Source: Gari tellinella (taxonomy: Eukaryota; Mollusca; Bivalvia; Cardiida; Psammobiidae). Taken from it: a DNA stretch of 64,000 nt. The notes beneath the pieces are model-generated. The model worked only from the letters and a program-made list of their open reading frames with translations, was not told the origin of the DNA and searched no databases. The stretch covers positions 5,766,001 to 5,830,000 of the forward strand of contig OV277871.1 in NCBI GenBank assembly GCA_922989275.2. The letters are read 5' to 3'. Positions within the stretch are counted from its first letter, which is position 1, and every line of letters starts with the position of its first letter. Positions 6,146 to 63,400 of this stretch are shown in pieces. A program made the position numbers and the translations under genes.

Positions 6146-6369
6146 ACTGTACATGAAAAATAATTATTTCCCGTTTAAACGCATTGCGATTAAATGTTGA
6201 AAATTACTTTTAACATTTATAGCATAATGTTAATCTGATTGACAAACAGTTTTGAGCCTAATTCGACGTCGGGTGACCCGGTGTCTGATCTGGCTCCAAA
6301 CTGTTTGTAATGGAAATATTAGTTTTAGCGTAAATGCGTTTATTAGAAAGGTAACGTCTTCTCCACTGT
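6146..6369. mobile_element. Family A MITE, decayed left end
   Basis: The palindromic core (6241-6310) reads CAAACAGTTTTGAGCC...GGCTCCAAACTGTTTG around a GACGTCGGGTGACCCGGTGTC centre. It is followed by the family A segment TAGTTTTAGCGTAAATGCG and the right terminal repeat GTCTTCTCCACTGTA. On the left only ATTTCCCGTTTAAACGC is recognisable, near 6165. Confidence 0.65.
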
Positions 6370-6467
6370 AAGTAACGATTGTTTGCTAAAATGTCAACTG
6401 CTAAAGTTCTTAATCGATTCGTACTTCTTTATATAGATACAGAAACGGGAGTTGAGTAATGTGCAAT

Positions 6468-7235: not shown

Positions 7236-7336
7236 TTATACATGTAGGAGGTATAAAAACCCTGACAATCTTTAAACTGGTCATGCCCCGCTTAAATTGA
7301 GACCTGGTCTATATCTAGAGAGTCCTTGCTAATATT

Positions 7337-7591: not shown

Positions 7592-7841
7592 TACAGTGGA
7601 GAATCTGTTATTCTTTCCCGTTTAAACGCAAACGTACGCAAACGCAAAACACTAAAACGTAGAAAAGAACAACTTTTGGACAATTCTGATAATTCTTGTT
7701 TATCATGGTGGCAAACAGTTTGGAGCCTGATCAGACGCCGGGTTACCCGGCGTCTGATCTGGCTCCAAACTGTTTGCTCTGCAAATAATAGTTTTAGCGT
7801 AAACGCGTTTATTGGGAAAGAATAACACATTCTCCACTGTA
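7592..7841. mobile_element. Family A MITE, full length (250 bp)
   Basis: This is a reference copy. The termini are TACAGTGGAGAATCTGTTAT and its inverted form ending CACATTCTCCACTGTA, with TA at both ends as expected of a TA target duplication. Inside, one side reads TTTCCCGTTTAAACGCAAAC and the other TTAGCGTAAACGCGTTTATT. The central core at about 7721-7787 pairs GCAAACAGTTTGGAGCC with GGCTCCAAACTGTTTGC around CCGGGTTACCCGG. TA flanks and CAGTG-type ends fit a Tc1/mariner/pogo-type MITE (inference). It encodes no protein. Confidence 0.85.
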
Positions 7842-7857: not shown

Positions 7858-8036
7858 TACAGTGAAGAAAACTTTTTTCTTCAATAAACGCGTTTACGTT
7901 AAAACTATTTACTGTTTGGCACTCTGATTAACACGAATAGTCAGAATTGTAAAACGTTTTCGTTGTCTGTTTTATTGTAATGCGTTTACATTTCGCTTTC
8001 GATTAAACGGGAAAGAATAACGTGTTCCCGATTGTA
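7858..8036. mobile_element. Family A MITE lacking the palindromic core
   Basis: Both terminal regions of family A are present: TACAGTGAAGAAAAC on the left and CGGGAAAGAATAACGTGTTC then ATTGTA on the right. The subterminal segments AATAAACGCGTTTACG and CACTCTGATTAACACG are also there. Where other copies carry about 66 bp of palindrome, this one has only ACTGTTTGG, the outer end of one arm. It lies 16 bp from the preceding full-length copy and in opposite internal orientation. Confidence 0.75.
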
Positions 8037-8354: not shown

Positions 8355-8605
8355 TACAGTGGAGAAAACGTTATTCTTTCCCAATGAACGCGTTTACGCT
8401 AAAACTATTATTTTCATTGCAAACAGTTTGGAGCCAGATCAGACGCCGGGTAACCCGGCGTCTGATCAGGCTCCAAACTGTTTGCCACTCAGATTAAAAC
8501 GAATGTTCAGAATTGTCAACAAGTTGTCATTTTCTACGTTTTAATGCACTGCGTTTGCGTTTCGTTTGCGTTTAAACGGGAAAGAATAACGTTTTCTCCA
8601 CTGTA
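8355..8605. mobile_element. Family A MITE, full length
   Basis: The termini are TACAGTGGAGAAAACGTTAT and ACGTTTTCTCCACTGTA. The core at about 8425-8493 pairs AGTTTGGAGCCAGATCAGAC with GTCTGATCAGGCTCCAAACT around CCGGGTAACCCGG. Its orientation is opposite to the 7592 copy, with the AATGAACGCG side on the left. Confidence 0.85.
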
Positions 8606-9152: not shown

Positions 9153-9401
9153 CACTGGAGGATACGTTATTCTTTCTCGTTTAAACGCAAACGAAACGCA
9201 AACGCAAAACACTTAAACGTAAGAAATGACAACTTGTTGACAATTCTAAGTATCCTTTTTAATCTGAGTGGCAAACAATTTAGAGCCTGATCAGACGCCG
9301 GGTAACCCGGCATCTGATCTGGCTCCAAACTGTTTGCATTGAACATAATAGATTTAGCGTAAACGCGTTTATTGGGAAAGAATAACGTTTCCTCCACTGT
9401 A
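9153..9401. mobile_element. Family A MITE, full length, left TIR altered
   Basis: The right end ACGTTTCCTCCACTGTA is intact. The left end begins CACTGGAGGATACGTTATTC and has lost the standard TACAGTGG start. The core at about 9270-9338 is well paired (TAGAGCCTGATCAGACGCCG opposite CGGCATCTGATCTGGC). Confidence 0.75.
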
Positions 9402-9594
9402 CTTTGTTAGAGAAGGGGGCTAGTTGTAAAACTTGAATTGTCCACTCGATGTTTCTATTGTAAATGAGTTTGACATAATATGGCTTAAAAACGCCCATAG
9501 TCTCTAACAATAGAACTCCAACATAGAAAATCACCTCCTTATTCACCGAACAAATTCTCCACTTTAACCCATTCATGATCTATTTTATCGTGAG

Positions 9595-9813
9595 GTTTTT
9601 CCCGCTTCACAACTTTATTGTCGTCTGCTTCAATATTGTTGTCAAAATATCGTTTCAAAGTGAGATTTAAGGCAGTATAACTGACGTAATTTCAAAACAA
9701 GTAGCAACAGTTTTGATTCTGATCAGACGCCGCGTACGTACATGTAGCGTCTGATCAGGATCAAAACTGATTGCAAAGCAACTTTATGACGTCATTGAGA
9801 ATGAAAGGGTTAA
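9595..9813. mobile_element. Family B MITE (GTCGTCTGCTTC type)
   Basis: It shows the family B modules in order: TTATTGTCGTCTGCTTCAAT, CAAAATATCGTTTCAAAGT, the palindromic core (about 9705-9772, TTGATTCTGATCAGACGCCG opposite GCGTCTGATCAGGATCAAAA), TATGACGTCATTGAGAATG and the terminal AAAGGGTTAA. TTAA ends with CCC-type terminal repeats fit a piggyBac-like MITE (inference). The left terminus is degraded. Confidence 0.65.
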
Positions 9814-16345: not shown

Positions 16346-16595
16346 TACAGTGGAGAATGTGAAATTCTTTCCCAATAAACGCGTTTACGCTAAAACTATT
16401 ATTTCCGATGCAAACAGTTTGGAGCCAGATCAGACGCCGGGTAACCCGGCGTCTGATCAGGCTCCAAACTGTTTGCCACCAAGATAAACAAGAATTATCA
16501 GAATTGTCCAAAAGTTGTTCTTTTCTACGTTTTATGGCTTTGCGTTTGCGTACATTTGCGTTTAAACGGGAAAGAATAACAGATTCTCCACTGTA
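16346..16595. mobile_element. Family A MITE, full length
   Basis: The termini are TACAGTGGAGAATGTGAAAT and CAGATTCTCCACTGTA. The core at about 16409-16476 is GCAAACAGTTTGGAGCC...GGCTCCAAACTGTTTGC around CCGGGTAACCCGG. It abuts an ATT-rich interspersed repeat on the right. Confidence 0.85.
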
Positions 16596-16596
16596 T

Positions 16597-17814: not shown

Positions 17815-18156
17815 TATAGTGTCCCCTCCCTACAACAGCCCTCCCAACAACGGTTCCCTCCTTACAACATCGCTTGCAGCTGTTTCCTTAACAATACATT
17901 TACGTCCAACGTATTCACGGCTGCAATATTGTCTGCTTAAGATTGTCGTGTGCTGTTTTTCTCGAAGTTACATATTAAACATTTTGACAGAAAACCCCTA
18001 AAGATGAGTGACAAACAGCTTGAATCCAGACCAGACGCCGCGTTACGCGGCGTCTGATCTGGATTCAAGCTGTTTGCAAATGTAAACCGATTTCCCTCCC
18101 CATAATGACTCCCTCCGAACAACGTACACAACTTTTGTCTCCCATTGGGTGTCGTT
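17815..18156. mobile_element. Family C MITE, rearranged or decayed right end
   Basis: The left end TAGTGTCCCCTCCCTACAAC matches the family C terminal repeat, and TTTCCCTCCC with CTCCCATTGGGTGTCGTTG near the right is the inverted subterminal block. The core at about 18010-18077 is GCTTGAATCCAGACCAGACG opposite CGTCTGATCTGGATTCAAGC around CCGCGTTACGCGG. Confidence 0.65.
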
Positions 18157-18270
18157 GTATATCTGCTTCAATAAAAATGGAATTCATAGTTTAAACAATT
18201 TATTACCCTGAAAATACATAATGTACAAGTCATAGGATTTCAACCACAATTTATGTTATAATTAAGAAAC

Positions 18271-21900: not shown

Positions 21901-24900
21901 GCAAAAACCTCTAAATGAAAACAAAAACCACCCTTAAACGTCAGCTATGAAGCGAGGGAATAAACCGGCGGTCAAGGAATTAAATAAGCTGTTGAATCCG
22001 CCCTAAATGACCAACCGTATTATTAACTCAGTATGAATAACTAATCCGTTTCACCAGACACACCTTAGGGCGAATAATCAATAACACGTACATCAGAAAG
22101 CTGTAGGAGCTTTCTGCTGTACATTCATTCTGTTTTATGCAGTCACCTGCCTACAATATATAACACATTCGACCCTAGTGACGAATATATTCGTCATTTA
22201 TAAACAGTACATGTGAGGAATACGCAATAAGTCTGTTTTTCTCATAACAAAAAACAGACGTTCCCCACTTTAAATGGTTGTTAGATAAAAAATACTATTT
22301 ACTGAAGGAGTGTTATCAAACTTACCCTCGTCTGACGCATCGACTTCTACTTTCGGGGCCAGCCCTTTCCTCCATTTGGCTCTACGATTTTGGAACCAAA
22401 TCTTCAATTAAAATTGTAAACGAAAAAGTGAAAAAAGTATATTTTACAAATTTGCGAGCTCGACAACAAAGAAAAATGAGATACTACATGAACTACAGTG
22501 GAGAATACGTTATTATTTCCCGTTTAAACGCAAACGAAACGAAAACACTAAAATGTAGAAAAGGACAACTTTTGGACAATGATTTTGCATTTTTATCTGA
22601 ATGGCAAACAGTTTTGAGCCTGATCAGACGCCGGGTTACCCGGCGTCTGATCAGGCTCCAAACTGTTTGCACTGGAAATAATAGTTTTAGCGTAAACGCG
22701 TTTATTGGGAAAGAATAACGTTTTCTCCATTGTATGTAATAAATGACATTTTCTTTAGAATTTGGGCCAATTAGTTTGGGGCCTGATCGGAAATCTGGTC
22801 ATTTGTTATCAGTTCTGGATGCAAACCTTCTTTAATGGACATCGCTTCTTGAAATGCAAATGTGTTTGTTTAAGGATGTTGGCCTGTCTTTTTGAGCATG
22901 ATGACATTTCAGAAAAACTTTACGAACTCATTTTCCGAAAAAGCTTAAGAACTCATTTTCGGTGAATGTATACAGTCATAAAATACTATTTTTGCCGGGA
23001 AAAATGGGTTTTCGTACCGGAAGGGACTTTTTAACTTTTGTGTCCGATTCGTAGTTTACAACATACACCATTTTTCAAAGTTGCACTTTGTTACATCCGG
23101 TTTCTTTTTCAATTTCTAAGAATATAAACATGACATTTTCATGGAAGTACAGTTTTATTATAAATTATAGATAATTCAATGGATCAAATGATTTTTTTTT
23201 AAAGTTATTTTTGATAAAAATACACAAAAAAGTGAAGAAAATAAAAGGGAGTTTTTAGATAAAATGGTCTATATCTTTTTTACAAGATCCGGGACCCTGT
23301 GTTTTTATTTGCTATTTCACTAAAACTTTATGTTTGCAAGGCTAAAATAGTCTCATTAATGAACCCCTGGAACGAGATTATATTTTGTGACAGTTCTCGT
23401 CCTAGGTGGATATGGCAAAGACGAAATATAGCTCCTTATCATATTACTGTGCACATGTGGACTAGGCTAAAAACAACAAATACAAAATTTGGTAATTAGT
23501 TTGCTACAATTTGTAGGACAATTTTCACTGTGCCTTAATCACCCATTATAAAAAAGTGGGTGTGGTAAATTTTACTCCTTTCCAGTGAAATCAAACATTT
23601 TTATTTTGGATCTTGATAAACATTATTTTTAGGGTTTATTCTTACATTTGTACTATAGTAATACAAATTAGGACCTTTCTTTTACAAATAGTTTGTACAC
23701 ATAAAGATTGAAAAAACGTATTACAAAAATAGGATTTTTGTGAAGCTTCAATTTTAGGGTGGGGGGGGGGTTACATGTAGTCTTGAAAAATCTCAAATTG
23801 TTGGAAAAAAGGTCCGGTACCCCCACTGTTTCACCAGGTTTGTCATAGAAACTAATTTTACCGGTAATTATTTTCCAAAGGTGCACCTATACCCCTTAAT
23901 AAAGTCGTATGAAACAAAACTAATCTTGGATTACAAACGACGACCATAATTATTATCGGCTCATAAATTTCGAGCTTCTTGTATCGTTCGAAATTAGATA
24001 TTTAGTGTCATACAGGATGAATTTTGATAATTTATATTGATAAAGCAAGTTTGGTGAAAAACATGTATACTTGGTATGATAAACCAATTCTCAAGGTATA
24101 GGTTTCTTAAGTCAAAAAGCTAAACATCTGTCTTTTAAAAACCATATAAATATAACAGAAGACTATTCTTGGATTGGTAGATAATTTGCAACAATCAGAC
24201 GCCTTGTAGCTTAATATAAGATATATGATTCAACCTACATGTATATAGCTATCGTATACAATTTAATTAAATCAAAATGACAGAAATGTTAAATAAAGAA
24301 GTGTGCAAAATTGGTATGATAATATAAGATATATGATTCAACCTACATGTACATGTGTATAGCTATCGTATACAATTTAATTAAATTAGAATGACAAAAA
24401 TATGAAATAAGGAAGTGTGCAAAATTGGTATGTTACAGTGGAGAAAACGTCATTCTTTCCCGTTTAAACGCAAACGAAACGCAAATAGCTAAAATGTAGG
24501 AAATTACCATTTTTGACATTTCTTATTATTGTTTTTTAATCTAAGTGGCAAACAGTTTGTAGCCTGATCAGACGCCGGGTTAACCGGCGTCTGATCTGGC
24601 TCAATACTGTTTGCAATGGAAATAATAGTTTTAGCGTAAACGCGTTTATTGGGAAAGAATACTGTTTATCCACTGTAATATGGGGGTACAAGAGTATTTA
24701 GAAAACTAAATGTGGCTGTTTCTGATAGTAAAGTACCTGTATTCTGGACTCGTTCAGACCCAGTCTTTGTGCGAGTTGCTCCCTAACTGTGACGTCTGGA
24801 TAAGGGGCCTTCCTGAAAGCCCTTTCCATAGACTTGAGCTGCTCTTGGGTGAATGTTGTCCTGGAGAAAATTACAGCTGTTAACACAATATCGAGCAAAG

Positions 24901-27900
24901 TGATGTGATTTGTGTGATATATTTTTTTTATGAAAAGAGGCAAATGAAAACAATGGATAAAACTTTTTTAATACTGTTTGCATAAGTCCCTTTTATAAGA
25001 CACTGGACACAAATGGGTTAAATAGATACATGTGTATGTAAAATGTGATGATGTTTGAATAGTACAGTGGAGAATCTGTTATTCTTTCCCGTTTAAACGC
25101 AAACATACGCAAACGCAAAGCACTAAAACGTAGAAAAGAACAACTTTTGGACAATTCTGATAATTCTTGTTTATATTGGTGGCAAACAGTTTTGAGCCTG
25201 ATCAGACGCCGGGTTACCCGGCGTCTGATCTGGCTCCAAACTGTTAGCACTGCAAATAATAGTTTTAGCGTAAACGCGTTTATTGGGAAAGAATAACAGA
25301 TTCTCCACTGTATGTCACAAAAAGTAAAATAAAAATATGGTTTTACAGGCGTGTTTATATTCATTTGGATTTATTAAACGAGTATTTTGGTAAACGTTAA
25401 AAAGAAGTCTTTGAAATTGTCCAGTTTTTATAATTTTCTTAAACAAAGAGTTGCAATAAATCTTATAAATTTTGAAGACAAATATTATACGAGTATTCTT
25501 GTTACAACCTAGATACTTTGGTATTCGTTTGTCAGGGCCTTTGAAGTCAAATGAATGACTCATACATGAACTAAGGCTAAGCACGAAGTAAGTAGACAGG
25601 AAACATGTTGTTCCAAATAAACCCCATTCATTCAGGAGATATATGGTCTAGCGTAGTGTAGATTTAATATTGATTCATTCAATTCTAATTTATAAATTGA
25701 TTATATCCACGAAGCAGCGATGGCGCAGGGTATTTAACATATTGTAATGACGTATATGTACACGACTTTGTCTCAAACCTCATTTGTATAGTTATACATT
25801 TTGTACCATTAGATACATGTATATAATTTTATTAGATAATAATTACTTCATTTTGATCTTAAGTTTTCTTAACAGATGTAAATTTAGCACATCGAAAAAC
25901 TTTATTTTGCTTTTGTTGACTATTCTTTGTCATTCTTTGCTACTATATTTTTGTACAACGATCAATTTATGTGTGTAATACTGTGATGTTATAAATATCT
26001 GTGTTATGACATATATCCTCTTCATCCGTTTGTCCGGAACCCTTAGCGAAAACGGACTATAAAGGTAATCAATTTAATGGAAACTGTGAGATACATTGAA
26101 CGAATATGGAGAAAAAATAGTTTTCTAACTGAAAATAACATTTAAAGTAATCAAACAACTTGATTGTTTAAACAAATACCAGGTATTCAAACTAACCTTC
26201 GGCTGTAATGCAGCGCCGCGAATTCTAATTATGCCGGAAGTTTGACGTCATCATCCGGGTAGCAAAGGCGCTTGTACACAACCGGGTCAAATTTATACTG
26301 CATATGAAAGGTCAATTTCCAGACACTCGCTACACGTAATAAATATTTAAAGTTATATTGGAAAATGTGTTATTCGGAATCATTTTACAAAGGGACATTA
26401 ACAAAAATAAGGTACGTGATCAATTATGGTATTCATTTTTTGAATATATAAATTTCTTCAAAGTTTCACTAAAATTCCAAGTTTTTTTCAGCATTTATTT
26501 CGGCTATTATGCTGCCCGCATCTAATACCTAACCGGAACCGCTTTTTGCGATGACGTAAGCAAACCGCACGCGCTGTATCAAGCGTTTTTGTGAGGCTTC
26601 CGGACATGTAGGAAGGGTCCGTTGTATGAGAATGGAGGATATAATGTTCTTTATATCATCTCGTATAATTCCTAAATGGAATGGCTTTGCGCTATTTTAA
26701 AGATTTTATTGTATATGTTCCTGTATGTATTGAATGTGCATTGATGAGATGTAAATAAAGAAAAAGATTCTACATGTATCTATGTATATTATACAAAAAT
26801 AATATACAACGGGTGTTATTCAACGTTCGCGCCCTCTCTTATGATATAAATATCTTTAACCATACCATGAACGCTTAAGGCGATGTTGCGGTAAATATTA
26901 CAACATTTATATATATTTATCACATAAACGTGTAAACTATAGACTTTCGTAAATATCGTACGACACACTCTACATATATCCTATACTTATTTAAGAATCA
27001 CCAAAATAATGTACTAATACGCCGACTGTCGTAAAAACAGTTTAAACAGAGAATCTAGTTTGACACACTTGGATCACCACGAGTCATTGAAACATTTTCA
27101 AGTGTCCTGAAACAAATTCTTCTTAGCCGTCCCGCAAACGATGGTGCAATTCAGGCTACATAAGGCTCTAGTATTAACAGTGGCTCAGACACACTTCAAA
27201 TTTCAAACGTTACATCATACTGACGTCAGTTTGCAAAAATGGCGTTATTCTGAAAACCAAACTAAATGTCCAATGATCATTTTTGTCAATAAGAACAATT
27301 TTAGATTAAATATTAACTTAGGATTTGAACATGGTTCCAGAGAAGTCTTTTCACAACACATTTAGTTTGATAGGTGTTTTATTTCATCTATGAATGAATA
27401 AAACCGAATAACGCTTAGACTAAAACTATGACGAATCGTTTTTCCAACATCCGAGGGAAAAGTGAAAGTAAGACCGTTCGGATTTTGTGTCAATTTGCGT
27501 TTATGTGATACATATAATATTTAATTCGAATGTTTTCAGCATTGAATTTATTGAACTCGTTGGATAAAATGATACGTTGCTCGCCAAGGCTCGCAACATA
27601 TTATTTATCCAACTCGTTCAATAAATCCACTACTGAAAACACACTCATTCAATATCCTCTGTATACAGATAGGAGACCAAGTAACTCGGCTTCTCGTCTA
27701 CATTTGTAATTCGCAACGATTTTCCACATTGAAAATGTTCTGAAAGAAACTGCTTATAATTTTATGACAGCTCTGAGAATAGTTACAGGCGAAAACACTG
27801 TTTTTACTTCAAATATATTGAAATGAGTGTCAAACAGTTTTGATCCTGAACAGACACCGCGTATCGCGGCGTCTGTTCACTATTCAAACTGTTTGTTGAT

Positions 27901-39278: not shown

Positions 39279-39349
39279 CAAACAGTGTAGATCAAGACCA
39301 GCCACCGCGTCGAAGACGCGGCGGCTGGCCTTGATCTACACTGATTGCA
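39279..39349. repeat. Palindromic core with a wholly changed but self-consistent stem
   Basis: CAAACAGTGTAGATCAAGAC, CAGCCACCGCGTC, a GAA loop, then GACGCGGCGGCTGG and CCTTGATCTACACTGATTG. The placement and outer CAAACAG ... GATTGC are those of the shared core. The stem differs from the usual GGATCC/GATCAGACGCC sequence at several positions, yet the two arms are complementary along nearly their whole length. Confidence 0.75.
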
Positions 39350-43373: not shown

Positions 43374-43614
43374 TTCAGTGGAGAAAACGTTATCATATAC
43401 GAAACGCAAACGCATTGCAATAAAATGTAAAAAGGCTACTTTTTGACAACTCTGACTATTTATTTAAATCTGAGTGGCAAACAGTTTGGAGTCTGATTAG
43501 ACGACCGTGGACGGATCACCTGGCGTATAATCTGGCTCCAAACTGTTTGCATTTGAAATAATAGTTTTAGCGTTACTGCGTTTATTGGGAAAGAATGACG
43601 TTTTCTCCACTGTA
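43374..43614. mobile_element. Family A MITE, full length, centre disrupted
   Basis: The termini are TTCAGTGGAGAAAACGTTAT and ACGTTTTCTCCACTGTA. The core at about 43482-43552 retains GCAAACAGTTTGGAGTCTGA and CTGGCTCCAAACTGTTTGC but has an unpaired centre (GACCGTGGACGGATCACC). Confidence 0.75.
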
Positions 43615-44670: not shown

Positions 44671-44942
44671 TACAGTGGAGAATATGTTGTTTTGTCCCGT
44701 TTAAACGCTAACGAAACGCAAACAAAACGCAAACGCAATTCACTATAATACAGAAAACTACAACTTGTTGACAATTCTGACTATTTATTGTAATCTGAGT
44801 GGCAAACAGTTTGGAGCCTGATCAGACACCGGGTTACATGTACCCGGCGTCTGATCTGGTTCCAAACAATTTGCAATGGAAATAATAGTTTTAGCGTAAA
44901 CACGTTTATATAATGGGAAAGAATAATGTCTTCTTCACCGTA
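44671..44942. mobile_element. Family A MITE with small internal insertions
   Basis: The left end is TACAGTGGAGAATATGTTGT and the right end ATGTCTTCTTCACCGTA. The apex of the core carries an extra TACATG (GGGTTACATGTACCCGG) that stays palindromic, and the right side has an inserted ATATA (CGTTTATATAATGGG). Confidence 0.8.
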
Positions 44943-45264: not shown

Positions 45265-45510
45265 TTAACCATTTCACTGACAAATTTTTTGAGATATTTT
45301 GACCCCTTCACCGCCATATTGTCGTCTGCTTCAATATTGTTGTCTGCAATATCGTTTCAAAGTTAAAGTTTAGGCAGTATGACTTTGGAATTTCGAAACG
45401 AGTGTCAAACAGTTTGGATCCTGATCAGACGCCGCGTTACGCGGCGTCTGATCAGGATCCAAACTGTTTGCAAACGCGCCCTTTTGCGTCATTGATAGTG
45501 AAAGGGTTAA
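45265..45510. mobile_element. Family B MITE, well preserved
   Basis: The left end is TTAACCATTTCACTGAC, followed by ATTGTCGTCTGCTTCAATAT, CAATATCGTTTCAAAGTTA and GAGTGTCAAACAGTTTGG. The perfect core is at about 45405-45471 (GGATCCTGATCAGACGCC / GGCGTCTGATCAGGATCC). It ends TTGATAGTGAAAGGGTTAA. It shows what the 62246-63391 copy looked like before its insertion. Confidence 0.85.
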
Positions 45511-46199: not shown

Positions 46200-46449
46200 T
46201 ACAGTGGAGAAAACGTTATTCTTTCCCGTTTAAACGCAAACGTACGCAAACGCATATGAATAAAACGTGGACAATGACAACTTATTGACACTCCTGACCA
46301 TTTATTTTAATCTGAGTAGCAAACAGTTTGGAGCCTGATCAGACGCCGGGTAACCCGGCGTCTGATCTGGCTCCAAACTGTTTGCAATGGAAATAATAGT
46401 TTTAGCGTAAACGCGTTTATTGGGAAAAAATAACGTTTTCTCCACTGTA
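46200..46449. mobile_element. Family A MITE, full length
   Basis: The termini are TACAGTGGAGAAAACGTTAT and AACGTTTTCTCCACTGTA. The core at about 46320-46386 is perfectly paired around CCGGGTAACCCGG. Confidence 0.87.
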
Positions 46450-46486: not shown

Positions 46487-46838
46487 TACAGTGTTCGCTC
46501 TCTACAATAACACCCAATGTGGGACAAAGCTTGTGTGTTGTTCGGAGGAAGTTGTTATAGAGAGGGAAATTGGCTTACATTTGCAAACATCTTGAATCCA
46601 GATCAGACGTCGGGTAACGCGGCGCCTAATCTGGATCAAGCTGTTTGGCAATCGTCATTATGGTTTTTTTCTGCCAAAATGTCCATTACGTGACTTTGAA
46701 AAACAACAACAATAGACGACAATTTTAATCAGGCGATATTGCAGGTTGGATATAATTGTTTTGTTTGAGGAACAGCGGCGTTGTTGTCAGAAGGAATCGT
46801 TGTCAGTCAGAGGGACGTTGTGTGGAAGGAACATTGTA
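46487..46838. mobile_element. Family C MITE
   Basis: The left end TACAGTGTTCGCTCTCTACA and the right end GAAGGAACATTGTA are inverted. Inside lie ACACCCAATGTGGGACAAAG, GTTGTTCGGAGGAAGTTG and TAGACGACAATTTTAATC. The core at about 46583-46650 pairs TTGAATCCAGATCAGACGTC with GGCGCCTAATCTGGATCAAG. Confidence 0.7.
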
Positions 46839-46957: not shown

Positions 46958-47207
46958 TACAGTGGAGAATCTGTTATTCTTTCCCGTTTAAACGCAAACG
47001 TACGCAAACGCAAAACACTAAAACGTAGAAAAGTACAACTTTTGGACAATACTGATAATTCTTGTTTATCTTGGTGGCAAACAGTTTGGAGCCTGATCAG
47101 ACGCCGGGTTACCCGGCGTCTGATCTGGCTCCAAACTGTTTGCACTGCAAATAATAGTTTTAGCGTAAACGCGTTTATTAGGAAAGAATAACAGATTCTC
47201 CACTGTA
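46958..47207. mobile_element. Family A MITE, full length
   Basis: The termini are TACAGTGGAGAATCTGTTAT and ACAGATTCTCCACTGTA. The core at about 47077-47143 is perfect around CCGGGTTACCCGG. It is almost identical to the copies at 7592, 25063 and 48529. Confidence 0.87.
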
Positions 47208-48528: not shown

Positions 48529-48778
48529 TACAGTGGAGAATCTGTTATTCTTTCCCGTTTAAACGTAAACGTACGCAAACGCAAAGCACTAAAGCGTAGA
48601 AAAGAACAACTTTTTGACAATTCTGATAATTCTTGTTTATCTTGGTGGCAAACAGTTTGGAGCCTGATCAGACGCCGGGTTACCCGGCGTCTGATCTGGC
48701 TCCAAACTGTTTGCACTGCAAATAATAGTTTTAGCGTAAACGCGTTTTTTGGGAAAGAATAACACATTCTCCACTGTA
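48529..48778. mobile_element. Family A MITE, full length
   Basis: The termini are TACAGTGGAGAATCTGTTAT and ACACATTCTCCACTGTA. The core at about 48648-48713 is perfect around CCGGGTTACCCGG. Confidence 0.87.
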
Positions 48779-49561: not shown

Positions 49562-49774
49562 TTAACCCTTTGCCTGCTGGTCGCGACTTTATTGATGTTT
49601 GCAAACAGTTTAGATCCAGATCAGACGCTGCGTAACGCGGCGTCTGATCTTGATCCAAACTGTTTGACACTCTTCTTTAGGTTTCTTTACTTACAAAAAT
49701 GTATAAATTGAAATTAACAAACTTTGCAGACGACAATTTCGAAGCAGACGACATCACCGCAGGATAAGGGTTAA
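49562..49774. mobile_element. Family B MITE
   Basis: The termini are TTAACCCTTTGCCTGCTGG and GCAGGATAAGGGTTAA. The core at about 49599-49665 pairs TTTAGATCCAGATCAGACGC with GCGTCTGATCTTGATCCAAA. The flank GACACTCTTCTTTAGG and paired GCAGACGACAATTTC / GCAGACGACATC blocks follow. Confidence 0.78.
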
Positions 49775-50301: not shown

Positions 50302-50554
50302 TACAGCGGAGAAAACGTTATTCTTTCCCAATTAACGCGTTTGCGCTAAAACTATTATTTCAGTTGCAAACAGTTTGGATCCAGATCAGACGGCGGGTAA
50401 CCCGGTGTCTGATCAGACACCAAGCTGATTGCATCTCAGACTAACATGAATGGTCATACAATCGTCTGAAGGTTGTCATTTTCTGCGTTTTATTGCGATA
50501 CGTTTGCATTTAGTTTGCGTTTAAACGGGAAAGAATAACGTTTTCTCCACTGTA
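50302..50554. mobile_element. Family A MITE just downstream of gene 2
   Basis: The termini are TACAGCGGAGAAAACGTTAT and ACGTTTTCTCCACTGTA. The core at about 50364-50430 is imperfect (GGATCCAGATCAGACGGCGG opposite CCGGTGTCTGATCAGACACC). It ends 39 bp from the gene's stop codon. On the minus strand it carries AATAAA at about 50489-50494. Confidence 0.82.
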
Positions 50555-51413: not shown

Positions 51414-54400
51414 CTGTAAAACAGGATGAGATATATTATATATATATCCAATATGTTACTGTTTTATCTATTGAAACCATACCAACGTGTTAACCCCTTC
51501 ACTGCCTTACCCGAGTACAACGGTTATTTGCAAACAGTTTGAATCCTGATAAGACGCCGCGTAACGCGGCGTCTAATCAGGATTCAAACTGTTTGACACT
51601 AATTTCAAAACTTCTTAACTCAAAACTCCTAAACATTGAACTTGAGAAATCAAAGCAGACGGCATTTTTTTTAAATTGATGACGTCATGGCAGTGAAGAG
51701 GTTAAATGGAATGGCGGTAATAAGCAATTAAACCTTAACCCATTTATGCCAGACAGTGGCGATCTAAGAACACTGCAGTATTATGTCCATATTGCAGAAC
51801 ATTTCAAATGAAATAGCAAATGGTGCAGACTCTGAGGAGATGCCACTGAACGCGTTGGCTCATCAGGGTATACATTGTTTGGCAATGCCCTGTTTAGCAG
51901 ACACTATATTTTAAGTGATAAATTTAGTAAGTTTTGATATACATTTATTAAAAAAAACTTGTTTTTTATACTACTTAAAATGGTACATATCTATCCATTT
52001 CATCTTTTCTTGTTTTAAGTAAACGAAGCTTGCAAGAATACAGCAGCAGAAAAATTGACAATCTGGCATACACCCATATAATCGCCGGTACATACATGTA
52101 TATCTATTTATCATAAGGCCTCAAAAGCGGATGTAAGAAAAGTATACTTTGACCATACGGTCTCGAAAATGCGTTAAAAACAAAGTAAATGCAAACAGTG
52201 GGTTTAAAAGGGTTTAAATTTCAATCAAATTTAAATATCTTTTGCACATGTACGCAACAATTGTCTTTAAAGCCGCATTGTGTTTTTGGGAAACCTGCAT
52301 AAAACGGTTGTTTGGGATCCCATTAGAACTACATGGGATGTGATTCTTTCATAAAAAGCGGCTTTATCTAAGAAATTCGCTTTTAAATTTTTATTTATAA
52401 TTTTTTTGTGCTAACACAATTTAAAGAGCCTCCTTGTGAATGGAAAGAAGGACAACTCTGTAAATACAGGGCTCCAGATAACGGAAATATTTCGATTACT
52501 AAACTCTTTATTTCTGCTTTTAAACCCAATGGTGTCATACTCATTAGAATCGTCTCGAAGAGACGGTTTAATCAGTAGTAACACCGTAGCATTCGGTGCT
52601 GAAATGAGTGAGAACATGTTGGATTTGTTCAGTTTATTCCTCTTATCTGGAGCCGGATGAAATGAAGAATTTAACCCTTATTCTGCTGCTAAGACGTCTG
52701 TTTTGACATTGTCGTGTGCAATATTTGTTCAGTTTAGATTTATGCATATTTTTGATTAAACAAACCTTAAGACGAGTGTCAAACAGTTTGGATCCAGATG
52801 AGACGCCGCGTTACGCGGTGTCTGTTTTAGAGTCAAACAGTTGCGACCAGTAGGCACAGGATTAAACTATGAGATAAGGTCCCCACGTGTAAATAATTAA
52901 TCACGGTGGTAAGCGTGTACAATCCGATACGGGGGATATTGCTGAAAATGACTGTTTCAGCCTTGTCTTCTCTCTAACTCAACCACCTATTTTTGGATCT
53001 TCACCAAACTTGCTATAAATGTTTATTAGTATAGAATCTAGCTCAATTTTGATAACTGTTAAAGTCGCATGAGGCATGTCTGAGTTATTGCCCTTGAATA
53101 ATTAAAAAAATGACTGTTTCAGCCTTTTCTGCTCTCTAACACAAACACTTTTTATTGGATCTTCACCAAACTTGCTGGCATTGTGTATTTGTTTTAAATA
53201 TAGATCAAGACAAAAATCGAATACAGCTGACTGAAAATCCTTCAAGAGGTAAAGGAGGTATGGAGTAGTCATTTATTACTTTACTTATTACCAACACGGC
53301 CAAGATGAAGCACATGCAACTATTGACCAAATAGTTGGTTTAAATAGAATAAAAACAGTTCCTGTTACAGAGTTGACAGGGCTAAAATAAGGATGAAATA
53401 GCAAATTTTTAATAATTGAAGAACCGTAACTCCAACATGCCTTCGGCGGGTATTCATAGAACTGGACTAAGTTTTTATCCAATATTATTTTCAGCAAATT
53501 TGGTGAAGATCCAATTAAAACCGTTTGAGTCAGAAAGCTGACAAGCCTGAAGTATGCAATCTATAATCATTCAAGGGCAATAACTTCAACATGCCTTGTG
53601 CGATTTTGGTAGTAAAGATTATGAACTTGATTTTATATTAATAAACATTTTCAACAAGTTTGGTGAAAATCACAAAAAAGTTATTTGTGTTAGAGAGCAA
53701 AAAATGGTGAAACAGGTATTTCTAAATACATAAAGGACAATAACTCAGACATGCCTTATGCGATTCAAGTAATAATCAAACTGAACCTAGATTTTGTATA
53801 AATAAAGAATTTGAGCAAGGTTTTGTTAAGATCCGAAAAGAAATGTTTGTGATAGAGAGCAAAAAATGCTGAAACATTAATTTTTAATAACTAAAGGGCA
53901 AAAAACTCAGACATGCCTTATGCGATATAAGTACTATTCGAACTGGAGATATATTTTATATTTATAAACATGTTCAGCAAGTTTGGTGAATATCCGATAA
54001 AAACTGTATGTGTTAGAGTGCAAAAAAAAACCCTGAAACAGTCATATTTTAATAATTAAAGGACAATAACTCAGATATACATTATGCGATTTTAGTAATA
54101 TTCAAACTTAACCTTGATTTTATATTAATAAACATTTTCAGCAAATTGGGTGAAAATCAATAAAAAGCATTTATGTTAGAGAGCAAAAAATGGTGAAACA
54201 GTCCTTTTTAATACATTAAGGGCAATAACTCAGACAATCATTATGGGATTTTAGTAATAATCAAACTGGACCTAGATTTTATATAAATCAAGAATTTCAG
54301 CAAGTTTGTAGAAGATCCGATGAAAACTCTTTGTGTTAGAGAGCAAAAAAGGCTGAAACAGTCATTTCTAATAATTCAAGATCAATTACTCCGACATTCC

Positions 54401-57400
54401 TTATGCGATTTTACTAGTATTCAAATTTAACCATGATTTAATATCAATGAAAATTTTCAGCAAGTTTGGTGAAAACTCAATAAAAAGAATTTGTGTTAGA
54501 GATAAAAACTGACTGAAAACAGTCATTTTAATACATAAAGGGCAAAAAAACCTTAGATATGCCTCATACGATTTTAGTAGTTATCAAACTAAACCTAGAT
54601 TTTATACTAATGAACATTTTCAGCAAGTTTTGTGAAGATCCAATAAATGTATATGTGAAAGAGAGCAATAATTGCTGAATCACTCATTTTTAATACAAAA
54701 ATGGCAAAAACGCAAACATGCCACATGCGATTTTGGTAGTAATCAAACTGGACCAAGATTTTATAATAATAAACAATTTCAGTAAGTTTGGTGAAGATCA
54801 ACTAAAAAATGCTTGTTTTAGAGAGCAAAAAATGCTGAAACGGTCAACTTTTAATACATAAAGGGCAAAACGTCTTACATGCCTTATTCGATTTAAGTAG
54901 AAATTTAACTGTACCTAGATTTTATATAAAAGAACATTTAATGCAAGTTTGGTGAAGATCCGATAAAAACTCTTTGTGTTAGAGAGCAAAAAGGGCTGAA
55001 ACACCGTTGTGACGAAATGTGACTCATTTTATAGCAATCGTTCGCACCCGGTGATATTGAACCCAGCTGTTCCACGTGCCACTAATCCGTGTGGCAATAT
55101 TTATGTCAGACGATCTACTTTCGGTTTGTTATGGTTTTAAATCGCTTTTTTGGTGATTTAGGTCTGTCTTCAACATTTCATAGATCAGTTTGGCCCATTA
55201 GAATGTTCAAGCATTATTATTAACCGTTATTGTATTTCGCACATTAAAAAAAGGTCTGAAAACACAATGGGACTTTAAATTCTGAAAGAAAAAAATGTAA
55301 CAATCCACATGTTATTTGCTATTGAATTTCTTTAAAGTATAACATATACTAAGACATTTAATTCGGTAAAAAAAACTATTTGCCAAATTCATCATTTGTA
55401 ATTTTTTGCCGAATTTCTTCAAAATATATATAAAATATACTTGTACATTTAATTCGGTCGAAACAATTTGTCAAATTCGGCATTTATAGTTCACAATATT
55501 TCTTTACAGTATGAAATAAACTACATGTAAAACATTTAATTAAGTAGAAGAGTTTGTTTTTTCGGCGGAGCTGACTATTATCTATTTAGACCTACATTTT
55601 TATTTAGACAAACATTTCAACCAATAATATTTGATCAGAAATTAAGAATTAAGAGCACCTGTTGAAACTGAATAGTCTGATTGGATAGAAGCCAGGGCTC
55701 CAGATAAGGGACGTGTTTCAAAACTTAAAATCTTTATTTGTGCATTAAACCCTGTGGTGTCACTATATATTGGAATTGTCTCTTCGAGACAATCAAAATG
55801 AGTGGTAATTCCATAGGGTTTGGTGCTGAAAGGGGTGAAAAAATGTGATTTGTTTAGTTTACTCCCTCTTATCTGGAGCCCTGTAGGCTAGTCCATGTCC
55901 CATTACAGATTCACTGATGTGGACTGTGGGTGTAAAAATTAGAGACACAGGCTGGCTGTTTACTACACTGGGCTGATGAAATCTTCTATTTTAAGATATG
56001 ATCTGAAATTTATTTATAGATATACAGAGGAAGCTAGGTGTTTTGTAATTGTTTACAACCAATTTGTTTTAATTGTTAACTATTTGTACACATTAGCAAT
56101 ATTTTATTATATTAATGGCCTCAAGTGAGTTAAACACAATTGTGTTGTTTCATCATTATTTACAAGAGTGAAGTACAGTAGATTGTTGTATCTGTACATT
56201 TGTGTATGCTATAGTTTGTTTCAAGAAACTCTATGAATAAAGTTTGACATATAGAACAATAGATTAATGTGAGGATCTCCTACCAGTAGCTAGGATATGA
56301 GTTAAATTATTGTTTTGTTTTGCATTTCTGTACATGATAGTTTTGCATTTTAAATAAAAGTTACTCTTTCAATTGAATACTTGTATTTTTTGCTTTTCAA
56401 TCCAAGATAGATCTATTACATTTCTTTGAAAACCTCAATTTCATTCAATTTTGCACACCCATCTATATAGCCTTAGTTCAACCACTCATTCCGCCTAATA
56501 TCTTTTTTAAAGATATTTCTTGTTACACTTAATGTCCTGAGCACATTTACAGTAAATATAAAAAACTAATTAAATTCGAAAATCTCTTAACATAGATACA
56601 GCTTTGGCTTTGATAAAAAGACGTCATTTAATACCTCCAGTGCCTCGCTCGACAACATTAACATACCGTAACTATACAAACAGTTTAAATCCCGATCAGA
56701 TGCCGCGCCATGCGGTATCTAATCGGGATTAAAACTGTTTGGCATTCATACAGGTATAGTTGAATGTCTTTATGTCAAACTACTTTAGTAATAAGAGCAG
56801 ACGATATTATTGCAGTATGTACGTTTTGACGTCAAAATAGCAGTGAAAAGGTTCCGTAGAAGATTACTCATATTTCAAAGCTTACAGTAAACAAGTTCGA
56901 GCTATCGAGAATTGGCATTAATGGACAAGCGCTTATAAAGCGTTTGAGTTGAGTCTGAGTGCGTTCTCAAGCATTTGATTGGTCAGATTTGAGCCTATGC
57001 TCAAATCTGACCAATCAAATGCTTGAGAACGATTTAAGACTCACCTGAAACGCTTTATAGGCATCGACCCTGTTTTCCATACTAGAATGTTATGTTATGA
57101 ATGAGTTTAACTTCTCTATTACGACCACTAAAAAGAAGGCTATTTGATGGTATGAAAGACAGGCGGCAGCTCAACATGAGCTTTCTGTTTTACTTTCACA
57201 TTGCTTGAAGTAGTCACTTGCCTTAAACACAAAGTAATTTACTTAATTTAATGCTCGTTATAAAGAGTTTTTACTGTTTGTAAATAATCAAGAAACAAAC
57301 TATCGATTAATAAAATACAACAATTTACTGTTAGGGGTAAAAAGAGGTGATACATGTATATGTGACATTATTCAATCCTAAGTGACCAGTGGCGAACATG

Positions 57401-60400
57401 TTATTCTTTTCTGTTAAAAGGAAATTAAACCTGACGCAAATACCTGAAAACAATGCGTGAAACAAGTTACTAGGCGTCTACTCAAGCTCAATACTGCGTG
57501 CAAATGTAAGCGTAAATACTACATGTATAAGACAATTAGATATTGATTGAAGGTACATATACTTCTATTGATATGATCGGGCATTTCCATTGTAATCTCA
57601 TCTGGAAGAGGGTCGCGCCGAAACCCTTCGGAACTTTTTGGCGGGAGGGAGCGCGTGCTAGGACCAAACGATGACGTGGACGAGTCTTTACCACTTCGAG
57701 GCCGAGAGCCGGGTGTTTTTGATGAGGTTACTCTGAAAGTGAAATAATGAAGGTAGATACATGTGAGTGAAATCAGTGACGTCACAAAATGAACACAGAT
57801 GTGAATGTGACAATTTTATGCAATGTGAGAGTGCAAACAAAAGCTTTTTAATATATTGAACCAAAAGAGAAACATCTATTACAAGTTTTTAAGTAATTAA
57901 ATCATCTATAGACATGAATTGATTTCCTAAAACGCTTCAGTTGACAAGGACAAGGCACTAATCGAAGGGTTCGTTATCAGAAACAGGGTCTTCTTATATC
58001 TAACTACTCGACATAGTACCATGAGCTTAGAATGTTTCGTCTCTAAGAGTTAAGCATCTAACACTGATATCAGTGCAATAAAACCATACTTGTCAGAGTA
58101 ATCTATTGGTATAGAAAGACATGTGTAATATGTGTCATTTGTAAATTTGACAATTTGTTTCAAATACTGAGTGTCAAACAGTTCGGAACCTGATCAGAAG
58201 TTGAATCACTCAATCTCTGATCTGACTTAAAACTATGTGTATGTGGCTTCCAATTTTGGAATAGAAACCTGAACCTTTTGGTTGGAAAAACTATCTTGAT
58301 TTCAGTATTTAAGGCTGCTTCACGCGAAGCTAATGTCTAGCTCATATGGCTCGTTATCAGAAGATGACATAGACATGAAAAGTAGTTCTATGTAAAAGGG
58401 TAAAACAAGTGAGGGTTAAAGTCTATTTTGATGACACTAGATAATGGTGTAACAGTTTAAGAAAGATGTCTTAACACAAACTATTTATTCGTGAGAAAAC
58501 AGAATCCTCATCAAAAGTATCTATAGAAATAGAATTCTAAATCTATTTATTGAAAATGTCACTACATGTACAAATGAGAAGACAATGGTGTTAATATATT
58601 TGAACACTCATGATTTAAGATATTTTATTAGAAAATTGAAAGTGACACACACTATTTCAAGATAATACGACCAGAGTATACCAAGAACAGCTAATTTCCA
58701 TATCAAAACTAGAAATGCAAACAGTATAGGCACAGACAACCCTTTATAAAACTTGTCTTGCCAAACGTTGTTTTGCTAGTGTACAGTGGAGAATCTGTTA
58801 TTCTTTCCCAATAAACGCGTTTACGCTAAAACTATTATTTGCAGTGCAAACAGTTTGGAGCCAGATCAGACACCGGGTTACCCGGCGTCTGATCAGGCTC
58901 CAAAACTGTTTGCCACCAAGATAAACAAGAATTATCAGAATTGTCTAAAAGTTGTTCTTTTCTACGTTTTAGTGCTTTGCGTTTGCGTACGTTTGCGTTT
59001 AAACGGGAAAGAATAACAGATTCTCCACTGTACATCTATACAGTAGAGAAGATGTTATTATTTCCCCTTATACGAAAACGAAACGCAATGCATTGCAGTA
59101 AAATGTAAAAAATCCAATTTTTGGACAACTTTGACTATTTGTTTAATCTATGTTGCAAACAATTGGGTTATCCGTCGTCTGACCAGGCGTGTTTTAAAAA
59201 CTATTAATGATTAACCCTTAGCCCGCCAAATAAATTGTCGTCTGCTATATTTCTCGTCTGCTTCAAGTTTCAAAGTGCTTCAAAGTTGCTCAAAATTGCT
59301 GAAAATGTTGTCCGAGTGTCAAACAGCTTGGATCCGGATGAGACGCCGAGTTACTCGGCGTCTCATCTGGATCCAAGCTGTTTGCATATGGAGCTATAGT
59401 TGTGAGTGGCAGGTTAAGGGTTAAGTGGTACATGTAACACTAGTGGCAATCAGTTGGTGCTTGATAAGACGCTGTATGAGAACCGTTATGGCATTTTTAT
59501 TTTTATTTAACCCTTACCTCTAAAAAGAATTCAGTGTTTAACCCTTTACCTGATAGCATTGTTATTAGTATTGAAGATATGTGACTACTTAAAGCAGGTT
59601 GAAAGTAAAGCAGAATGCGCCCTAAGGCGCATTCTGCTTTACTTTCAGCCTGCTTTAAGCTATTAACTGCTAGAATAAGAAAAGTATTAAATATGACACA
59701 TATTCATTACGGTATAATTTGGAACTATTTTCTTCAGCGGATGAATAAAATGAATGTGCTAAAAGTCGCTTCTATAAGGTAAAGGGTTAAGTCAATGGAA
59801 TGGTTACTTAACCCTTTTGCACTTTTTTGTCATATTGCAATACATTGACAAAACAACCATAAATAGTCAAAAAGGGACTAGACTAAATTCGAAATTGGAA
59901 TTGTCCATTTGAGTTTTCAGGGAGGAATGGGCTAAAATAGACTGAAAGAAACACTAGTTTGTCTCATTGAAGCTGTCACCCGTCATGCTATGTTTTCTTA
60001 AAAAGCCAAAAGGGCGGTTCCATAAAGTAAAGGGTGAAAATGACACTCTAATGATGAATCTTAAAAGACATGTAATTAAATGCAGGTGATAGATTACTTC
60101 TGAAGTTGTGCCTTTCATTAACCCTACCCCTCATAGAAACATTTGTTCACGTCTTTAACCCATTAATGCCTGTTTATTTGCAATTAACTCTCCCTTTGTG
60201 ATTGCAGTAGTATCAGAGCTCCAGATAAGGGGAGTATTTCAAAAAAAAATTTTTTTATTTCTGCATTAAACCCTATGGTGTCACTACTCATTAGAATCGT
60301 CTCTTCGAGACGATTCTAATGAGTAGTAACACCATAGGATTTGGTGCTGAAATAAGTGAGTAAATGTTAAATTTGTTCAGTTTACTCCCTCTTATCTGGA

Positions 60401-63400
60401 GCCCTGTAGTATTTCATTATAGATATACAAGGGTGATCTAAGGACATTGCAATGGTTTTTGGTTTGGTTTTTCATACAGCAGAACATTTAATATGCCATA
60501 GCAAACAGTGTAGACTCTGATGAGACGCTGCGTTACGCGGGGTCTCATGTTGATCATAACAGTTTGACACGCATTGTATGTCAATTGGCTTACAAAGCAA
60601 TATTTGAGAAATAAGAGCAGACAACAATTGTTTAAAGCAAATTACGTCATGGCAGTGAAGGAGTTAATAAGTTCTTTACTGTTTATAGAGAGTTTTGCGT
60701 GATAAGTGATTTGCTGTTCTGTGTTTACCATGGTCGTAATTATTAGCCAGCAACTGATTACTGAAACATACGTACCTGTGAGACTGAGGTCGTGAAGAGG
60801 TAGTTTTACTTCCGGTTCCGATTTTGCTGGATCCCGGTCTTACCGAGGACGCCGGTCTGTAGTGGACTACACCAGACATGGGCCGGGTTATAATAGTGTG
60901 AGGCATATTATCATCCAAATCAGAACGCGGCGAATCTGGTTGAAATATTAAAAGTAAATTGTACTTACTGTGTGTATGCTACATCGGGGAAGACGTTACA
61001 GTGTTCCCTCCCTACAACAACACACAATGGGAGACACAACAACACCCAATAGGAGACACAAATTGTGTTAGTTGTTCGGAGGGAATTGTTACAGGGAGGG
61101 GGAAATAATTACTCTAGTAGTGCTGATTATGACTTGGCTTACATTGCAAACAGTTCGAACATATATCAGACGCCGAGTTACGTGGCGTCTAATCTGGGTT
61201 CTAACTATTTGTCACTAGTCTTTATGTTTTGTGTAGGACGTTACTATGAGTAAACACAGCAGACGACAATTTTAACGCACGATATTACAGCTGTGAAATC
61301 GTTAGACATAACTGTCTTGTTTGGAGAAATGCGGCAATAACTATCGTTGTTCGGAGGGCCGTTGTAGGGAGTGAGCACTGTATCATTTTCCTGTTTGAAC
61401 GAAACTCACCGCAAACACAATGTAATAATATGTAGAAAATGACAACATTATTAACCCTTTACCTCATAGCTTGTTTCTAGTTTTGAAAAACAGGTAACCA
61501 CTTAAAGCAGGTTGAAAGTAAAGCAGAATGTGCCTTAAGGCACATACTGCTTTACTTTCAGCCTGCTTTAAGCTAAAATCTGCTAGGCTATATAAAATAT
61601 ATATAATGGTTATTGTTCATGAGGGTATAAACTGGAACTATTTTCTTCAGCGGAGGAATATATTAAATACGCTAAAAGTCGCTTCTATGAGGGAAAGGGT
61701 TAAAATGTTATCCGTTGTCTGATCTGACTGCAACCTGTTTGCAATGCAAACTTTTGTTCCATTCCAAACGCATAAATTTACATGTATTGCATGGGAATGA
61801 ATATGTTCACCATTACATTTATACTAACAAAAGTTAACCTTACATTATGTGTTTAAAATGTATGTTATATGTTTCAGAAGTATCAACATTAAATTGTAAC
61901 TAAACCTCTGCCTCGTTCCTCTACTTGGAAGACAGACCAGCTCATTGATTCATGTTTTCTCTTTAATTGTTTGTAGGAATTTTACAAATTGTACAAACCG
62001 TTTAAGTGGGTTGAACGTATTATTGGGTACATATTAGGTTTAACTCGCGGTGCATTTGTTCGGGAACCCGCTGCTTTCTACTATTCAAGAATTCCTAATC
62101 TTTACTTAGAAACGAGAAAAACAACGTCTTCATTTGAATATAGTTACATTGTATTTCAATTTCAATTTAGCTCTTTGAATGTTTGTTACAACACTTTAAT
62201 AATCTCATTTCCCTTTTTAATTAATGTATTGGTTGTGTCACTGCCTTAACCCTTTCATGATCAAATTATTCGGGACATTTTGTCCCCTTCACTGCTTGTC
62301 CGCTTCATTATTGTTGTCTGCAAGATACGTTTCAAAGTTAGATTTAAGGCAATATGACTGACGAAATTTCAAAACGAGTGTCAAACAGTTTGGGTCCTGA
62401 TCAGACGCCGCGTTACGCGGCGTCTGATCAGGACCCAAACTGTTTGCAAACGCGCTTTAAGGGTGTATTAATGTCATGAGCCATTTTTTTTCAAAGTATT
62501 AAACTTTTTTTCTATCATTGTTTTTTTGGAAGAGCTATTTATGATGAATGAAATAATGAAAAAAAATATATATGGTGGTGTCCTTTTTTTGAGCTACAGC
62601 GATTTGAAAAAGGTATGTCAAATTTGGATTTTTTTTCTTCAAATTTTACCCATTCAGAGTACAAGTTTCAGTAAAATCTATTTCAAAACAAAACAAAAAT
62701 GTTAATTTGGGTTTTCTTTATTTATTTCATGTCTATGGTGGTATGTTCACAAATATAAACCAAATTTAGACAAAGCAGGCACCAGGTTTGAACAATATGG
62801 ATCCTTGAATATCAAAAATATGCTTGATATAGGGCATGATTTTATTAGATTTTTTTATTTTATGAAAAAAAGTAAAAAAGTTTGAAAATGAAATGCCATA
62901 CTAAGGTAGTTCAAAATATGAAAAGAAATTGAAAGGTCAGTGTTGAAAATTTTGAGTTATTAAAGTAAAAAGAGTTATCACCCCTTACAAAATTTACAAA
63001 AAAGTACCATATCGATGATATTTAGAGCTTTATAAATTTCACATTTGGTGCCTTATTTTTCTTAAATTAGTTTTTGTATGAAGAAATACTACCATAGATA
63101 GGAAATAAATAACACAAACCCAAATTATCATATTTGTTTTCATTTAAAATGGGTTTTATTGAAGCGGGCTGTTTGAAAAGGACAAAATAAGAGGAAGTGG
63201 GTGGGGTAAATTTTACATGGCCGTAGAGCCAACTGTTGTTCACCAAAATGTACACTTTTTCTATTTTTTCATTCATCTTAAATAGCTCTTCAATACAAAA
63301 CCATCATAGAGTGTTTTCATATACTTTGAAAAGTTCCCAAATTCATGACATTGATACACCCTTAAAGCGTTATAGAGAGTGAAAGGGTTAATTTCTGATT

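Follow-up and report, generated by a model that had tools for sequence, protein, structure and literature searches.

An internal palindrome common to TA- and TTAA-flanked miniature inverted-repeat transposable elements of the bivalve Gari tellinella, with evidence of nesting

Across a 64,000-nt stretch of the genome of the bivalve Gari tellinella (contig OV277871.1, addressed here as C16:5766001-5830000 and called the window hereafter), miniature inverted-repeat transposable elements (MITEs) with different ends and different target sites carry a palindromic core in their interior. TTAA-flanked MITEs have been swallowed by TA-flanked MITEs, as seen in two composite elements. Statistics, with the caveats weighed below, show that the core is far less variable than the inner flanks among source lineages and that the cores of the families differ mostly by paired changes. 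On balance, we favor the reading that the core is the internal hairpin module of a large non-autonomous group, that it was transferred from TTAA to TA elements by nesting, and that it aids their spread. An earlier note on this DNA had described one 66-bp palindrome shared by MITE families A, B, and C with unrelated outer sequence; the presence of a palindrome inside all three families was borne out, while its size, the notion of a single sequence, and the outer difference between B and C were not.

The core unit is 67 nt long, with two 33-nt arms placed around a central T or A. A 13-nt half-core (CCAAACTGTTTGC) matched the window 89 times at two mismatches or fewer, compared to 2.3 matches expected by shuffling. 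Near-palindromes with 33-nt arms number 55 in the window, and 39 of these, one of them a variant termed D, belong to the core family, with 22 to 33 of the 33 arm positions pairing; counting fragments, the window holds 58 core-like stretches. Beyond the window, we sampled 28 stretches of 10 kb, picked by coordinate, from the same genome (1.6 Gb, 80 contigs). The window has 42 near-full cores and this 280-kb sample 131 (0.47 per kb), with none in 4 of the 28 sampled places, and extrapolation gives ~750,000 copies genome-wide, a figure that is an estimate only. Window and sample together (344 kb) yielded 239 core-like matches, 177 of them near full length, and the 173 cores with sufficient flank on both sides formed the set used for flank classification. 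Exact core patterns found no match in viral contigs and three in prokaryote contigs (Spirosoma, Brucella), which we judged to be chance.

The letters of the core vary by family, reading GGAGCC..GCCGGGT in A and GGATCC or GAATCC..GCCGCGT in B and C, so that no one sequence is common to all. Two boxes are kept across families, CAAACAG at the outer end and GATCAGA in the middle. The short CACTC flank said to travel with the core does accompany it in A, B, and C, as GAGTG or a variant thereof, on one side of the core only.

Families A and C have TA at both ends, adjoining CAGTG, a motif from which we take them to be Tc1/mariner or pogo-like, and their consensus sequences measure 250 to 251 bp and 362 bp, respectively. 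Families B1 (217 bp), B2 (247 bp), B3 (211 bp), and E (250 bp) show TTAA at both ends in complete copies, and older copies have mutated ends. Set against CC[C/T]T, the sequence beside the TTAA starts with CCCC in B1, CCCT in B2 and B3, and CTCT / CCCT in E. A family F of about 227 bp is poorly supported, a further core context ending in TTAAC occurs at L003:6518 and L025:3635 (L-numbers denote stretches or loci fetched from the same genome, and the prefix W denotes the window), and variant D is likewise separate. Among the core-bearing families seen, there are thus more TTAA (piggyBac-like) than TA families. A Helitron or Helentron identity was ruled out by the inverted ends and by the TA or TTAA at both ends.

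The three elements originally cited as examples all exist. The complete family A MITE at 7592..7841 (+) has TA-CAGTGGAGAA ends, TA on both sides, and 98% identity to the consensus, and its palindrome (A variant, 7711..7777, +) pairs at 32 of 33 arm positions. The complete B1 MITE at 51490..51705 (-), with TTAACCCCTTCACTGCC ends, is flanked by TTAA on both sides and shows 92% identity to its consensus, its B-variant palindrome (51530..51596, -) pairing at 31 of 33 positions. The family C MITE at 60997..61382 (-) is old, with ~40 nt remaining between the core and a CCC-rich part, and its decayed palindrome (61146..61211, -) pairs at 24 of 33 positions.

Families B and C, said to differ in their outer sequence, have ~100 bp of left flank in common. 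Consensus alignments over this length gave z values of 10.1 (B1-C), 8.4 (B2-C), and 9.3 (B1-B2), each against 300 shuffles, and the B1-C alignment extends to the second base of the terminal TTAA of B1. The left flank of E is weakly like those of B1 and C (z 2.7 and 3.5). Of the 22 rows of C, 5 have a TTAA no more than 2 nt away from the inner right boundary (in L013:1224, probably via a later change), and the other 17 are without one there. At L010:6970-7376, TA ends and C-type sequence enclose bases 4 to 209 of the 217 bases of B1, which comprise its left end, core, and most of its right flank. Given the B1 left end buried in C and the nearly whole B1 at L010, C began as a TA element holding a TTAA MITE. 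In the second composite (L018:2600-2839), apparent A-type ends lie on both sides of 153 bp of a B3-type element, including its right-hand TTAA end, with 5 mismatches over the 153 bp to the window copy at 59211-59424. The initial 61 bp of the B3 element and the middle of A are both missing from this composite, indicating that a deletion accompanied the event.

Family A stands apart. Its left flank scored no better than shuffled sequence against the B1, B2, and C consensus sequences (z 0.3, -1.2, and -0.6), and a profile built from 49 left flanks of B and C matched none of 68 A flanks, with shuffles giving 39 matches in 1360. Besides the core and GAGTG, A and B have only a few bases in common, and no flank homology beyond GAGTG was detected, while their ends and target sites differ. 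The interpretation of unrelated outer sequence therefore holds for A versus B and fails for B versus C. Homology well beyond the core and CACTC, which would have pointed to deletion derivatives of one parent, was not detected for A; for B and C it is nearly of that extent, and nesting, not deletion from one parent, accounts for it. As the L018 composite makes plain, a core-bearing TTAA element can come to lie between A-type ends, and family A would have arisen by the nesting of a TTAA MITE in a similar manner. A-type ends also occur around a core-less inside (L009:2343-2660) and on a 2.1-kb element (L021:7807-9891), which has several degenerate half-cores only and no frame above 125 codons.

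A different route to the same outcome would be for MITEs to swap their outer parts at the hairpin via palindrome breakage and recombination, and half-cores starting at the palindrome centre do occur. However, 122 of the 173 cores have both flanks of one family (in 48, one or both flanks are unassigned, and in 3, the labels differ), and the core variant tracks the flanks. With A flanks on both sides, the core was of A type in 65 of 65 cases, and with C flanks, it was of B type in 18 of 20, the remaining two (L002:5262 and W:61146) being decayed. One of the three mixed-label cores is the L018 composite and the other two rest on weak one-side scores of 42 to 44, leaving L018 as the sole strong mixed-flank case, with its joins outside the core. 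We rejected exchange at the core on these grounds and consider it very unlikely. The suggestion of a module exchanged between MITEs thus holds for the outcome, in that two composites are seen, and not for the place, as the joins sit in the flanks.

The core might instead be a mobile unit in its own right that inserts into MITEs, a view that gains from the variety of its flanks, with six or more contexts seen (A, B/C, D, E, F, and the L003/L025 pair). Joining the flanks of eight consensus sequences and searching the 344 kb gave no clean empty site, target duplications tight around the core not having been scanned for, and we regard a self-mobile core as extremely improbable. The junction-spanning matches were core deletions, reached into an arm only, or were short and chance-like. 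A core-less A copy in the window (7858..8036, -), found in this junction search, and a core-less B2 copy (L002:1-164) keep arm pieces (ACTGTTTGG in the former, as a deletion scar) and are therefore deletions, not empty sites. We also noted that a B-type palindrome is interrupted at its central TA by a family A insertion (L010:8191-8440), and that a family E element is split in the middle of its palindrome by a TTAACCCTTACAATGC end, apparently that of a piggyBac, next to a piggyBac transposase gene (L036:334-490). These two cases were too few for the palindrome centre to be taken as a target hot spot.

Pairing between the arms was assessed in 30 cores hand-chosen across families, 27 of them distinct. 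In this set, 94.7% of cells pair and 18 of the 33 pairs have changes on both sides, compared with 31 to 39% pairing and 2 to 7 two-sided pairs when the partners were displaced by 1 to 3 columns. The A, B, and C consensus cores show paired changes at positions 9/59, 13/55, 15/53, 18/50, and 31/37, with a T-T mismatch at 18/50 in the A consensus core, and the small B1 and B3 consensus sequences add two unpaired changes. Within copies, we counted 27 paired changes, 12 doubly changed unpaired positions, and 226 single changes. The ratio of paired to unpaired changes is thus 5:1 between consensus sequences (5:3 counting the small-family changes) versus 27:226 in copies (p 1e-4, or 9e-4).

Conservation was examined by separating private mutations, found in one copy, from shared variants, found in at least three copies and taken as markers of source lineages, using 47 copies of A, 19 of A0, 10 of B1, 12 of B2, 6 of B3, 15 of C, and 11 of E. 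Over these seven families, shared-variant sites amount to 13/469 in the core, 107/1123 in the inner flank, and 11/196 in the terminal 14 nt (core versus inner flank, p 7e-7; core versus terminal, p 0.11). Random placements of 67 nt in the flanks averaged 41.7 shared-variant sites, and none of 20,000 was as low as 13. The deficit is also present in the TA families alone (8/201 versus 74/578, p 3e-4). Private mutations in the young family A are equally frequent in core and flank (26/3106 versus 64/7058, p 0.82), do not differ significantly in A0, C, and E, and are lower in the core of B1, B2, and B3 (p 0.022, 0.043, and 0.0001). Between consensus sequences, A and A0 differ at 0/67 core positions versus 22/183 in the flanks (p 0.0016), and B1 and B2 at 1/67 versus 40/137. 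Low shared variation, together with the mostly paired differences, suggests that the hairpin matters for spread, in TA families too.

Several points weigh against this reading. For nesting, we found no old intermediate leading toward family A, and the A flanks are without trace of B. For pairing, the count of paired changes omits position 1/67, which pairs only in A, as well as the E, F, and D cores, and the E copies gave 76 testable pairs only. Some paired changes occur in single copies (e.g., L006:6466 and L009:3008), as arm-templated repair predicts, so arm-to-arm repair may contribute. For conservation, only A0 (p 0.0022) and B2 (p 0.0032) fall below 0.01 for shared sites when taken singly, with A at p 0.1 and B1, B3, C, and E not significant. 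Pooled private mutations are lower in the core of both TA (2.2% versus 2.8%, p 0.026) and TTAA families (4.4% versus 6.9%, p 1.5e-5), and part of the core conservation is therefore not source-level. Finally, every copy was collected via its core match, which biases the set to conserved cores, most strongly in old families.

A rival account is that of a passenger palindrome, without any role of its own, which was nested along and looks conserved through arm-to-arm correction (by template switching or gene conversion) and core-based finding; the complementary changes in single copies, the somewhat rarer private mutations in the core when pooled, and the collection of all copies by their cores speak for it. 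We find this account doubtful. Family A, which should be least affected by core-based ascertainment, has mostly unpaired changes (39 versus 2 paired) and equal private mutation in core and flank. Shared-variant sites are still rare in the core over all families, a 0.29-fold deficit that exceeds the deficit in private mutations (0.79-fold in TA and 0.64-fold in TTAA families). Arm correction alone also leaves the retention of CAAACAG and GATCAGA across families unexplained.

The main functional rival is a transposase-binding role, where the core is a subterminal site for a piggyBac-type transposase and families A and C retain a relic. A palindromic internal repeat presumably sits in the right end of piggyBac itself, some 44 bp in. 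In piggyBac RE63, such a repeat is bound by the cysteine-rich domain (PMC7351741). PF13843 matches the genome 86 times, with the best 19 matches nearly full length and stop-free. Moreover, the distance to a TTAACYY that faces inward is 36 to 43 nt for 14 cores outside A and C, which belong to B1, B2, B3, one F, and one copy without a family label. The contrast in spacing is weak, however, as 8 outward-facing ends, counted as a control, also fell in the 35-44 nt bins and 23 further inward-facing ends lie 105-114 nt from a core; in family E, the core lies 77 and 106 nt from the ends.

Two related piggyBac loci carry, downstream of the transposase, a TTAA..core..TTAA unit with a length of ~200 bp (L032:413-613 and L037:557-755), and we considered the L032 core, 40 nt inside its TTAA, as the subterminal site of an autonomous piggyBac. 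This claim was dropped because the sequence beyond the TTAA is common to other copies, with a 33-nt pattern 44 nt outside it also occurring beside copies at C3, C4, and C5 and at C14 (all genome addresses, as opposed to members of family C). The 5′ end found for the piggyBac (TTAACCCTTTCCCACATGG) is unlike the end of the L032 unit, and its 3′ end was not reached. Among the six piggyBac loci fetched, none showed an element with B ends on both sides; L033:192 has TTAACCCTTTCGGCGCC, resembling the B2-labelled copy L011:8994. At the density of cores in this genome, some would be expected near any locus, and shared variation in the core is low in TA families as well. We regard a transposase site as unlikely.

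Returning to the internal hairpin module, the proposed course of events begins with a hairpin-bearing TTAA MITE landing in a TA MITE. The composite would then have moved by means of its TA ends, with the flanks and ends of the nested element eroding and the hairpin left behind. From its conservation and pairing, the hairpin would aid the spread of elements with either type of end. The most likely mechanism would be architectural, with the 33-bp arms extruding as a hairpin or cruciform on supercoiling, replication, or excision. A putative host protein on the CAAACAG and GATCAGA boxes, together with the hairpin, may bring the ends together for either transposase. A structural or host-factor role is our best guess because low shared variation occurs with both types of end. 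The low shared variation in the core of TA families also lends some support to the earlier suggestion that the palindrome may be recognised by a factor distinct from the transposases. The stronger claim, of a transposase-independent DNA hairpin that acts as an amplification module, is captured by TTAA and TA elements alike, and is selected for pairing plus a few letters, is one we put forward tentatively, as possible.

The stem could also act as RNA, with MITE transcripts folding into a 33-bp stem that would be processed or bound and so affect spread. While a long covarying stem is what this would require, the core matched no Rfam family at gathering scores and MITE-derived small RNAs would be expected to silence the MITE, leaving an RNA role quite improbable.

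The remaining family A copies in the window are for the most part complete, lying at 8355..8605 (-), 16346..16595 (-), 22494..22734 (+), 24434..24677 (+), 25063..25312 (+), 35789..36039 (+), 44671..44942 (+), 46200..46449 (+), 46958..47207 (+), 48529..48778 (+), 50302..50554 (-; older, 88% to consensus), and 58782..59032 (-). Two more have a mutated left end, at 9153..9401 (+; older) and 43376..43614 (+). Family C is further represented by a complete copy at 46487..46838 (-; TA-CAGTG..CCCTC ends, TA on both sides, 87% to consensus) and one with the right end lost at 17815..18159 (+). The TTAA families include an old B1-like copy with decayed ends at 56628..56853 (-; 73% to consensus), complete B2 copies at 9564..9813 (+) and 45265..45510 (+), a B2 copy missing its right end at 62246..62462 (+), and complete B3 copies at 49562..49774 (-; TTAACCCTTATCCTGC type) and 59211..59424 (+), the latter being the copy matched by the L018 composite. 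Variant D (..GTGTAGATC..GTC-GAA-GAC..) lies at 39278..39348 (+), with 30 of 33 arm positions pairing.

Other repeats accompany these elements. A different repeated palindrome (CTTAAAGCAGGTTGAAAGTAAAGCAGAATG and variants) occurs at window positions 47934-48007, 59588-59659, and 61501-61572 and in fetched loci, and a third palindromic repeat (ACTACTCATTAGAATCGTCTC..) occurs at window 60255-60355 and in the piggyBac loci L037:2180-2255 and L038:1720-1800. The window also holds a palindrome with 85-nt arms, 86% complementary, around a 3-nt centre (2346-2518), and a tandem-like, GTCGAA-rich repeat block that matches itself about 17 to 24 fold (3000-5700). Broken frames resembling a long interspersed nuclear element, with reverse transcriptase, lie at 10542-13975 (-). 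The few named relatives listed for this reverse transcriptase come from bivalves, including Mactra antiquata and Mercenaria mercenaria, and from one lucinid-symbiont assembly, probably as host DNA. Outside the window, L010:160-970 and 1440-2250 appear to be a tandem duplication, offset by ~1.28 kb, with a family A element and a decayed core.

The general view of MITEs is that they require hardly more than their ends. In the present families, whose target sites differ, an internal hairpin ranks with the best-preserved sequence, and the role of the MITE interior in spread becomes directly testable. The two composites also show how short elements can change ends, through the insertion of one element into another whose own ends then prevail. 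In the open-licence literature searched, we found no report of one palindrome common to TA and TTAA MITEs. As judged from that literature, what appears to be new is the sharing between TA and TTAA elements along with its nested intermediates, the covariation in the hairpin, and the contrast of shared with private variation.

Partial likenesses exist in several known systems. In the ends of piggyBac and piggyBat, two cysteine-rich domains bind subterminal palindromes (PMC7351741, PMC11707139); these sites measure ~14 to 19 bp and are transposase-bound, whereas the core described here is 67 nt long and little varied in TA families as well. In MER6, a V domain of short interspersed nuclear elements is carried inside a Tc1/mariner MITE, so that a conserved domain of one kind of transposon likewise rides in another (PMC6887750). 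The MER6 module came from a retroposon and ours from a TTAA MITE, and the sections on MER6 that were consulted mention no hairpin.

The closest precedents in the sources consulted are the coral CMITEs and a lucinid repeat. The CMITEs of Acropora are short TTAA elements with differing terminal repeats and a common internal region of ~75 nt, which is better conserved than the ends, and the element CMITE-IN was newly formed by a CMITE insertion (PMC2872659). As in CMITEs, the core here differs less between families (A-A0, B1-B2) than the flanks do, and the end of CMITE family VI (CCCTTTCACTGCCA) is one base off the B1 end. CMITEs are all described as TTAA elements, in contrast to the TA families seen here, and their internal region is not called a palindrome, hairpin, or stem in the text (PMC2872659). 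Repeat 1 of Lucina pectinata, as described, is ~210 bp long, has inverted ends of 30 bp around a central palindrome of 77 bp, recurs in genes of this bivalve, and has similar pieces in other molluscs (PMC4732748). The account of it reports no identifiable target duplication and makes no comparison of differently ended families (PMC4732748). Homology between the core and this repeat is likely.

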